Shown here one piece after another: positions 2,649 to 33,194 of a stretch of 64,000 nt of DNA. The notes under the pieces were generated by a model that saw only the letters and a list, made by a program, of their open reading frames with translations, searched no databases and was not told the origin of the DNA. This stretch comes from Arctopsyche grandis. Taxonomy: Eukaryota; Arthropoda; Insecta; Trichoptera; Hydropsychidae. The translations under genes were made by a program, and so were the position numbers. Each line of letters opens with the position of its first letter. The first letter of the stretch is position 1. The stretch spans positions 15,487,001 through 15,551,000 of the forward strand of contig NC_135364.1 of the NCBI RefSeq assembly GCF_051622035.1, given 5' to 3'.

Positions 2649-4689
2649 GTACATACATATACCCCGTTGTATTTCGGTTTCAGTTACAGCTATGTGGACT
2701 ATCTATATACTTCTTCTGCCTTAAATCGAATTAAATTTCCAGTTGGAAAAGTGTGAACTATCGACTAGTGTAAATATGCAGCGTCTCGTTAGACATTCGG
2801 TGTGTCAGGAGCTCTCGAGATTTTGTCGACCGCAAGTCGCATTTAACATTCAAATTATCTGGTGAGCTACGTGCTTAATATGCTAAGCCTTAGAGGGTTA
2901 AAATTTTGTAGAATTAACACCCTTATAACGCGACGTTCATTATTATTTACTTTGCTCTTCGCTTTGACACTGTGATTTACATAAATTCTCACTAAAACTT
3001 CTCAATTCTACGTATGCACGTACATACATACATATGTTGAATCAAATCAAATATGTTTGGTTATCAAACACATTCATCAATGGACATTTCTCATAAATTT
3101 TATATGATAAATTAAATTCACAGTAAATATATATGTAATTGTTAACTCATACCAACTCTTGTCTTGAGATTTTAAATGTAACTTTAACATTGGCCATTCA
3201 TGTAGTGCTTTGTCTGCAGACAAATCTAGCCATTTTTCACAGACCAGCAACTTGCAATAGATAAAGCTCTTTTTTACAACAAAATACATACAATTGTTCG
3301 AGTGATACTAGTTTTTTTATTCACGTCATTGAAGAACTGACAATATTATTAAATAATGGACTGGATATTATTTATTTATTTTATAGCTTTTAAATATTAT
3401 ATAATGTATTAAACTACTGACAACTAATTTGTCCTTATTTCTAGTATAAAAACTATGTTTATCTCTATTCCTTATTCATATTTCATATTAATCATCAAAG
3501 TACTCAGGCAATAACTTATGAACTAACTTATAAACAAAAGACAATGTACTAATATTTAGACTAATTCTAATACTCATTCATCCCAATTCATCTAACATAC
3601 TTTTCCAATATTCTTAAATCTACTCACATTCAAAATACCTCTCATAGCTTTATTCTTTTTTTTTTGCATTATATGCATTTTATGTATGTATGTTATTTTT
3701 TATTTTTTATTTTCTTTAATTTTAACGCGATTCCATTACGGGTTTTATCCCTGAGCGACACCTATGGTATTATACTTGAACATATATATTTATACATTTT
3801 AGATTATATATTTGAAATCACATTCAAATAGTGGTGACAAATAGTTTGATTAAGAACCGTTTTAATAATGAAATCAGATAAATTTGCTAACTCTGATAGG
3901 AAACGATTGACTTGGAGTAACAAATATCCATCTGACCAGCAGCACTATAGAAATACTCGAATTAAATTCTCTTTAATCAAGGTCAATCCATGTCTTGAAC
4001 CCGGGAACCTCTCGGTGGTTAGCGTTAACGCAACCATCTAGCTATAATTTATTGCTGTACGTATTCCGAAATATTCTTAGGTATAAGTACGATTATACGA
4101 TATTTGATTTTTAATTTTATGTTGAGTGTAGACTCATTTTCGACTAATATTCGATACAACGTTTTCTTCTAAATTCAAAACCATCTAACATAAAATTTAA
4201 ACTATTATATTTTGGTACTACCGGTAGTGTATTTTGTGCCACCGGTAATACCGAAGGCCACTTTTTGACCAAAAACCAGTAGAACCGCTTTTGTTAAAGC
4301 CCACTATCATTCAAAGTAGAGTTTTTAAAAACTTAGTAAAATCGATTGAAGTTCATTTCATATATGTATGTAATGTTACAGATCTCCAAAGCTATTAATA
4401 ACAATTAACGCACATACGTATGTACATATATAGTAAAAGTGGCATACAGACTTGGACAACGTAGCTTAGACAACGTTGATAAAGATTAATATCCATTTCA
4501 AAATTTACATACATATACATACACATGTATATATGTTCCCATATACTTGTTTAAAATTGATAGATGTTTGAACAGTGCATTAAATAATTCATTTAGTCTA
4601 TACGCATACGGTTTTAGGTACATATTGCGTGTACAATATAATAGGTATGCACATAATATACGAAGAAGCTTTCAAAATTTCACCACCAA
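2649..4689. other. Non-coding stretch with one SINE copy
   Basis: AT-rich sequence. The only feature I can support is the degenerate SINE at about 3843-4055. Nothing else is recognisable. Confidence 0.5.
3843..4055 (-). mobile_element. tRNA-related SINE copy S2
   Basis: Minus-orientation copy with the shared blocks AAGAACCGTTTTAA and GGAAACGATTGACTTGGAGT, the CAGCAG block, and a B-box-like region (CTTGAACCCGGG read on plus). The A-box end (GTTAACGC...CTAGCT) is diverged. Confidence 0.65.
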
Positions 4690-31859: not shown

Positions 31860-32310
31860 ATATCTTTGAAAATTTGTAATTCTAAGGAGCATTACATAAG
31901 TAATACCTACCATAAATATGCACAAATGTGTGCAACACACACAAGAATTGAAAGTCGAAAAAATTATATTCCTTAAAAAATACGATATATGCATTTAGGT
32001 TGTCTTGTATACTTGTGGATTGCTGTTGCAAGTTACAATTTGTAACGCACCCAAACTATAATTCGGGGAAATAACGGGATAGCAGGTATAGCTTTGGTCA
32101 ATCGGCCGATTTAAGTTTGCACACAGGCGGTCGAATTTTTAGGCGCGGCCCTGCAGCAATATATGTATATACGATACTTATGTATATATGTTACAGTGAA
32201 AGCATATTTCAAGTGAAAATATATTTTCACCGATTCAAGCAGTGAAAATGTATCAATGTATAAATTTAAACATAAAAAAAACCCCAATCTTAAATGAATT
32301 GGGCCAGCCC

Positions 32311-32340
32311 TTACTTAACCTAACCTATCCTAACCCTTAA
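32311..32340. repeat. Short degenerate CCTAA-type repeat
   Basis: AACCTAACCTATCCTAACCC reads as about four units of CCTAA, the complement of the common insect telomere unit TTAGG. It is short and imperfect, so this may be chance or part of the MITE. Confidence 0.4.
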
Positions 32341-32381
32341 ATAATACCAACCCAAACAATATAATCTTAAATGAATAAAAG

Positions 32382-32504
32382 TGTGGCGACCCCATAGAAG
32401 AGGGTGGCAACACCGGTCGCCATGGTTACGGCAGTGGAGCTGTCATTCGACCATTCGGCCCTAACTCGTGGGGGAGGAACTACCCTGTTCCCCCGAGACC
32501 CACA
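32382..32504 (+). repeat. 5' LTR of the TRIM
   Basis: 123 bp, TG...CA, identical base for base to 32766-32888 by eye. Confidence 0.93.
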
Positions 32505-32505
32505 G

Positions 32506-32523
32506 TGGTGACCCCGACGTGAT
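32506..32523 (+). other. Primer-binding site, complementary to tRNA-Trp 3' end
   Basis: An 18-base match starting with TGG, the complement of CCA, one base after the LTR. The assignment to tRNA-Trp comes from my knowledge of that tRNA's conserved acceptor and T-stem sequence. Confidence 0.8.
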
Positions 32524-32576
32524 AGACAGCGCGCACCCCCATCCCCCCTATTCTTCCCGACAATCTTGGAAACACG

Positions 32577-32765
32577 ATGTCCGACGGTGAAGCAGACAAC
32601 GGCGCCGCCGAAGCAGGCGGGGAGAACAAAATGCAGAACCACAGCAAGAAACTGGCCGACAAGCAACCACACGGACTGGCAGGAGAGTCCGGTGGCCAGC
32701 CCATCTGGACAGCTACATCCCGTAGTTGTCGCGACGGCTACGCAATGTCGCTGGGGAGGGAGTGA
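32577..32765 (+). CDS. Short ORF inside the TRIM, 62 codons
   Basis: It starts MSDGEADNGAAEAGGEN, is rich in Ala, Gly and Glu, and ends across the polypurine tract just before the right LTR. It may be the preserved start of a gag gene fused to 3' sequence, as seen in some miniature elements. It is too short for a functional capsid. Confidence 0.35.
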   Translation: MSDGEADNGAAEAGGENKMQNHSKKLADKQPHGLAGESGGQPIWTATSRSCRDGYAMSLGRE

Positions 32766-32888
32766 TGTGGCGACCCCATAGAAGAGGGTGGCAACACCGG
32801 TCGCCATGGTTACGGCAGTGGAGCTGTCATTCGACCATTCGGCCCTAACTCGTGGGGGAGGAACTACCCTGTTCCCCCGAGACCCACA
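32766..32888 (+). repeat. 3' LTR of the TRIM
   Basis: Identical to 32382-32504. It is preceded by a GGGGAGGGAG polypurine tract and followed by the AAAG target duplication. Confidence 0.93.
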
Positions 32889-33194
32889 AAAGCAACCCTA
32901 AAAATGTAACTGGTTATGATTTCACTGAAACGTCAGTGAAAATATATTTTAACTTGAAATATAATTTCACTGTGACATATACAATAAACATAGTGGTTAT
33001 GGTTGATAGTATGGGGGATGAACGAATGAGACGACTGGCATGTTAATGCACGTGTTTTATTTATGACAGCTGAAGGCAGAGTGAGGTAGCTAACTCCGAA
33101 CACAATCGAGTTGGTCCCCACTCACAGGAAGGTGACCAAACTCGACCATGTCGTATAGCGAGCCGCCACATCAGCTATTATTACTTCGCTATTA

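Follow-up and report, generated by a model that had tools for sequence, protein, structure and literature searches.

A 507-bp LTR element of Arctopsyche grandis whose two arms derive from the ends of a 4,335-bp Ty3-type retrotransposon

Closest described elements and the present locus

TRIMs are non-autonomous LTR elements; in their published description they stay below 1,000 bp and carry direct repeats of 100-250 bp at their termini (PMC6934838; this and the other papers are cited here from excerpts). Their origins are usually guessed from old families with many copies, and for most of them, according to the excerpts of two papers, no autonomous relative has been reported (PMC4717578, PMC3532108). 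A small rice TRIM of 408 bp has been interpreted as an 8.5-kb copia element reduced by internal deletion, and the authors of that work consider that TRIMs likely derive from internal deletions (PMC4717578).

The window analysed here is a stretch of 64,000 nucleotides from Arctopsyche grandis (Trichoptera; NC_135364.1, positions 15,487,001 to 15,551,000 of the forward strand). It holds an LTR element of 507 bp (window positions 32382..32888), for which one can read the parent element, the precise junction and the unoccupied site, and this in an animal Ty3 element. Taken alone, the short copy is an ordinary defective element; its usefulness lies in the fact that parent and junction can both be read. 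Like OsajRetroS10 of rice and its parent OsajLTRA10, it appears to combine an internal deletion with a long parent in the same genome; OsajRetroS10, however, carries a duplicated 25-bp sequence at the breakpoint where a 19-nt imperfect repeat is found here, and it is a mobile family of copia type, whereas the 507-bp element is one copy of Ty3 type (PMC4717578). PbTRIM from the red harvester ant is also a small animal LTR element (480-781 bp) that lacks a coding region and has 4-bp duplications; it is multi-copy, matches tRNA-Leu and, in the excerpt of its report, has no autonomous partner found, whereas here the partner was found and the short form is single (PMC3532108).

The parent resembles elements of the CsRn1 lineage, for which the marks given in the excerpts are a tRNA-Trp primer site, a CHCC Gag motif, a GPY motif in integrase and usually a duplication of 4 bp (PMC3630058, PMC2582038). 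CsRn1_Cv1 of Calliphora vicina is 4,294 bp long with frames of 267 and 1,036 amino acids, compared with 4,335 bp and frames of 293 and 1,031 amino acids in the parent, and both have the tRNA-Trp primer site and the GPY motif; the LTRs of CsRn1_Cv1 measure 179/180 bp against 123 bp here, and its CHCC motif was not found in the one copy of the parent tested (PMC3630058).

Structure of the 507-bp element and its insertion site

The element lies on the plus strand between two copies of the target-site duplication AAAG (32378..32381 and 32889..32892), which were read directly from the letters, the left one also by comparison with empty paralogues. Its 5' LTR (32382..32504) and 3' LTR (32766..32888) are each 123 bp long and identical at 123 of 123 positions. 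The 18-nt primer-binding site TGGTGACCCCGACGTGAT (32506..32523) begins one base past the 5' LTR and is complementary at 18 of 18 positions to the 3' end of a tRNA that we take to be tRNA-Trp, and the polypurine tract CTGGGGAGGGAGTGA (32751..32765) directly abuts the 3' LTR. The internal region comprises 261 bp. It starts with the gag start kept from the parent (32577..32629), after which the frame enters pol-end sequence in another frame; the last pol codons, with the pol stop at 32723-32725, follow at 32630..32725, out of frame with the gag start. No polymerase was found within the 507 bp, the sole frame being a 62-aa relic (32577..32765, stop at 32763-32765) made of the gag start and the out-of-frame pol end. 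The deletion junction lies in an imperfect repeat with 15 of 19 positions identical (32625..32643). A preliminary description, made from the letters, had placed the element at the same coordinates and listed the identical 123-bp LTRs, the AAAG duplication, the 18-base primer-binding site, the polypurine tract and 261 bp inside with no polymerase; all of these were borne out by direct reading, and its view of a structurally complete non-autonomous LTR element of recent insertion is supported. The first 35 nt of the LTR gave 76 matches in the genome with up to 3 mismatches, compared with 0 for a reversed control pattern; hence, the repetition of the LTR is not due to chance.

The 507-bp element entered an element-like host repeat (32185..32981) with 49-nt inverted arms (32185-32233 and 32933-32981), which is common in the genome (40 of 1,641 first-look candidates scored). 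Eleven of about 39 listed paralogues were fetched, and all 11 have continuous flanks at the insertion point, that is, they are empty. They read AAAC, AAAA or CAAC at this point and none reads AAAG, so that the duplicated base is the window's own variant; one paralogue (L079) has a small deletion just to the right of the insertion point. The paralogues support an insertion with a 4-bp duplication.

The preliminary description also called the element very young on account of its identical LTRs. The insect mutation rate is about 3e-9 per site and generation, at which zero differences between LTRs are common up to a few million generations, and hence identical 123-bp LTRs say little about age; such pairs were present in 16 of the 29 two-LTR copies fetched. 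The youth of the element finds better ground in its two arms, which match 7 of 26 long copies (L009, L010, L020, L023, L024, L027 and L032) without any difference outside the junction. Two long copies, L009 and L010, have different target duplications and are identical over 4,335 bp, which is a stronger sign of recent activity than identical LTRs.

About 120 bp from the 507-bp element, on the minus strand, lies an LTR (33010-33170) of a second, 1.09-kb family; it is about 89% identical to the LTR of L049, a 661-bp deletion derivative of this family, and no perfect target duplication was found around it. The family is repeated, with at least 83 matches from the 40 of 1,338 candidates scored. 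Five fetched copies (L085-L089) measure 1,082-1,101 bp, with LTRs of 162 bp, 97.5-98.5% alike, and three of them have perfect 4-bp duplications. Their longest frames range from 126 to 206 amino acids; the 206-aa frame gave no Pfam match, and polymerase was not detected in the five. The 1.09-kb family has in common with the 4.3-kb element the purine tract and the LTR start (23 bp, 95.7%, E 2.6e-5), and it is a real small LTR family beside the 507-bp element.

The parent family, its lineage and its primer

The genome of the window was searched (475.7 Mb, 189 contigs). The 76 matches to the LTR start, a pattern of 35 nt with at most 3 mismatches that misses older copies, form 32 same-strand pairs and 12 single LTRs; together with L018, which came only from the search with the 507-bp sequence, 33 two-LTR copies were detected. 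Fetched were 29 of these 33 copies and 11 of the 12 single LTRs, the other four two-LTR copies lying in an array on contigs C13 and C73. The pair spacings are 384 bp (the window), 703, 1,429 and 5,315 bp, while the other 28 fall between 4,067 and 4,213 bp. Perfect 4-bp duplications surround 25 of the 29 fetched copies and differ between copies, which the preliminary description had named as a supporting outcome. Some copies are duplicated among themselves (L016/L017 and L035/L036), so the independent insertions are fewer. L016 and L017 (C2:37190705 and 37471102) are of equal length, stand 280 kb apart and have the same flanking letters; this pair is a segmental or assembly duplication. Copies of the family also occur in the array mentioned above, with a period of about 21.46 kb (C13:27456647-27522714 and C73); the idea that this array is rDNA was rejected, as 22.5 kb of C73 searched gave no Rfam match. 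Several fragments of the 3' part of the element lie near the end of contig C2 (27427-121937, L048), and the one fragment fetched matches element positions 3851-4197 at 87% and has no LTR.

L009 (4,335 bp) served as the yardstick for comparing long copies and is one copy, not a consensus. In it, frames of 293 and 1,031 amino acids follow one another, and the Gag stop and the pol start overlap as TAATG at 1275-1279, which suggests that pol may be translated by stop-and-restart rather than by a frameshift. A piece of its Gag matches DUF7041, and pieces of pol match, in order, RVP (1.6e-5), RVT_1 (5.4e-36), RT_RNaseH_2 (1.1e-32), Integrase_H2C2 (8.5e-15) and rve (1.1e-10), which is the protease, reverse transcriptase, RNase H and integrase order of Ty3/gypsy. 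Of 26 long copies, 11 have both frames at full length (at least 286 and at least 1,028 amino acids), and the remaining 15 are broken. The active partner postulated earlier thus has a counterpart in this genome: a Ty3-type element whose ends match, which shares the primer site and whose reading frames are apparently full. L023 (5,438 bp) was considered as the true full-length form and rejected, its extra 1.1 kb interrupting pol between repeated bases.

With respect to the CsRn1 marks, the parent has the primer site (18/18 against the presumed tRNA-Trp), a single GPY at the integrase end, within the last piece of pol in L009, and the 4-bp target duplication in 25 of the 29 fetched copies. The published Gag motif CX2HX9CX3C (PMC2582038, excerpt) was absent, by strict and loose patterns, from the 293-aa Gag and the first 200 amino acids of pol of L009, the only copy tested, whose Gag holds two Cys. 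Because CHCC was not found in L009, the Ty3-type parent is termed only CsRn1-like here and is not filed as a member of CsRn1.

The primer of both the 507-bp element and its parent is presumably tRNA-Trp. No tRNA-Trp gene was found in the assembly: one search gave 0 matches, and a further one returned no more than two matches, both to the 3' half (E 2.2e-10 and 0.0013). A T-arm/acceptor pattern marked 15 places, of which 12 were fetched; ARAGORN recognised no tRNA in these 12, and those looked at were primer sites of other elements or tRNA-like repeats. Indirectly, the identity of the primer is supported by L049, in which 28 nt matching the 3' end of the presumed tRNA-Trp directly follow the LTR, and by another tRNA-like repeat with a 39-nt match to the 3' half. 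Only the first ~10 nt match in the five 1.09-kb copies, compared with the 28 nt in L049. At two places (L050, C13:29269489, and L083, C12:8477122), tandem-like repeats contain the tRNA-Trp 3' half with CCA, up to 39 nt and reaching to the anticodon, beside LTR-like sequence; these repeats are possibly reverse-transcribed primer tRNA.

Origin of the short form and its sister derivatives

When the 507-bp sequence was searched against the genome (40 of 106 candidates scored), the one full match was the window itself, and the remaining long matches were split, with positions 1-262 at one place and 244-507 about 4 kb away on the same strand. The same split was obtained with a query over the centre of the element (40 of 69 candidates scored), and a pattern for the junction, with up to 3 mismatches, matched once in 475.7 Mb, in the window. 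On L009, positions 1-248 are joined to 4075-4335, with 3,828 bp missing; the 5' side of the parent is identical through 32629 and its 3' side from 32628. The two arms of the 507-bp element derive from the two ends of the 4,335-bp Ty3-type element. When about 200,000 pairs of positions were drawn at random from the long element, leaving out pairs less than 300 bp apart, none reached the identity of 15 of 19 positions seen in the imperfect repeat; the 19-nt frame was chosen post hoc.

Two other derivatives of the family are short. L019 (826 bp, duplication ATTT) has an LTR joined to the pol end and has lost the primer site. L028 (C10:11802684-11804235, minus strand) is 1,552 bp long, with identical LTRs and the duplication AATC, and consists of element positions 1-142, 982 bp of foreign sequence and element positions 3908-4335. 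The foreign part matches contig C4 in blocks separated by gaps of 85, 74, 98 and 871 bp, each of which can be placed as a GT-AG intron on the minus strand. Read on the minus strand, it starts with 6 nt of an LTR end and 15 nt of the flank of the full-length copy L020, followed by a spliced frame of 198 amino acids; residues 6-198 of this frame align with 6-208 of the human U5 snRNP 40-kDa protein (E 6.5e-76, 257 bits), although some multi-repeat WD40 proteins outscore it in total through repeated matches. L028 has captured a spliced chimeric LTR-SNRNP40 (U5-40K) transcript originating downstream of L020, antisense to the element, and since the host exons were captured without the four GT-AG introns, it arose through RNA.

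Very probably, a recently active Ty3-type, CsRn1-like LTR retrotransposon of 4,335 bp gave rise to the 507-bp element, a single copy with an internal deletion, which was formed by a template switch in reverse transcription and then inserted into the host repeat with a 4-bp duplication. A long parental RNA would have been undergoing reverse transcription when the growing minus strand jumped from the pol end, as donor, to the gag start, as acceptor, at the imperfect 19-nt repeat; the short cDNA would have kept the LTRs, the primer site and the purine tract and would have been inserted by the integrase of the parent. Such a jump is expected to leave the 3' version of the repeat from the first mismatch, and since the 507-bp element carries the 3' (donor) version from this mismatch, element position 249, onward, it fits the template switch, which is further favoured because the short copy is no older than the youngest of the long ones and because the family demonstrably makes rearranged cDNAs, as in L028. 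A point against this account is that no tRNA-Trp gene was detected in the assembly, with no tRNA recognised by ARAGORN at 12 of the 15 pattern matches. It is unlikely, by comparison, that a full-length copy inserted and then lost 3,828 bp in the chromosome through slippage or recombination between the imperfect repeats. The 15-of-19 repeat could have served slippage or homeologous recombination, from a single genome a deletion that preceded insertion cannot be told from one that followed it, and L027 and L035/L036 have internal deletions with filler at the breakpoint, which would be compatible with chromosomal repair and with reverse transcription alike. Arms identical to 7 of 26 long copies, however, leave little time for a later loss of 3.8 kb, and the three short derivatives among the 32 pairs (spacing 384, 703 and 1,429 bp) all have perfect 4-bp duplications, one of them, L028, being demonstrably made through RNA.

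An established multi-copy TRIM family, which the preliminary description had proposed, has very little probability. The element agrees with the published TRIM description (PMC6934838, excerpt) in its 507 bp, its 123-bp repeats, the primer site and polypurine tract that border its internal domain and its lack of coding capacity for retrotransposition proteins, but a repeated family with a common short internal domain was not found: the junction has one match genome-wide (up to 3 mismatches), on which ground this family was rejected, and only one of the 32 LTR pairs found by pattern has its spacing. As the junction occurs once and the arms are the ends of the parent, the element is a single internal-deletion derivative and not part of such a family. 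The structural side of the earlier reading thus stands, and the family reading is largely refuted in the present assembly, while other individuals could hold more copies. The search proposed earlier with sequence next to the primer site returned long copies and not TRIM copies, and the absence of other copies, named in advance as the adverse result, is true of the 507-bp form and false of its LTR. A TRIM that has just arisen would be expected to look like this element, and there is no sign that the short form itself has multiplied. For an assembly artefact or a chance repeat no supporting evidence was found, and its probability is negligible in view of the target duplication, the empty state of all 11 fetched paralogues and the derivation of the arms from both ends of a known element; an artefactual repeat was rejected on the match of the arms and on the empty paralogues.

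The template switch preferred for the 507-bp element and the capture seen in L028 would mean that, within one family, a TRIM was born and a gene was captured by copying errors of the same kind. We tentatively suggest, with somewhat more doubt than confidence, that the 4.3-kb family is a readable record of reverse-transcription errors, comprising a newborn TRIM and, in L028, the capture of a host gene by mis-primed plus-strand strong-stop DNA. The 3' exon in L028 lies beside the primer site and the LTR end comes last, with a shared GTGAT at the primer-site end, and this order agrees with reverse transcription that began, via GTGAT, at the primer-site end of a plus-strand intermediate. Plus-strand strong-stop DNA (5' LTR and 18-nt primer site) would have mis-primed through these 5 nt on a spliced LTR-SNRNP40 readthrough mRNA, and copying would have run from the 3' exon of the mRNA to the LTR end, followed by a switch, a fold-back and the return to the element. 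If so, this would be a route of gene capture via a plus-strand intermediate and not via a minus-strand jump, and the LTR of L020 would have driven or joined the transcript of a splicing gene. LTR-mediated retrocopies have been reviewed, in the excerpt used, as arising when the template is switched between an LTR element and host mRNA, which also applies to L028; unlike these, L028 captured a spliced readthrough RNA from the LTR of another copy, in antisense and joined at the primer site (PMC5408686). Beyond the captured exons, L028 has an inverted piece, then a palindrome, then the two 3' exons a second time.
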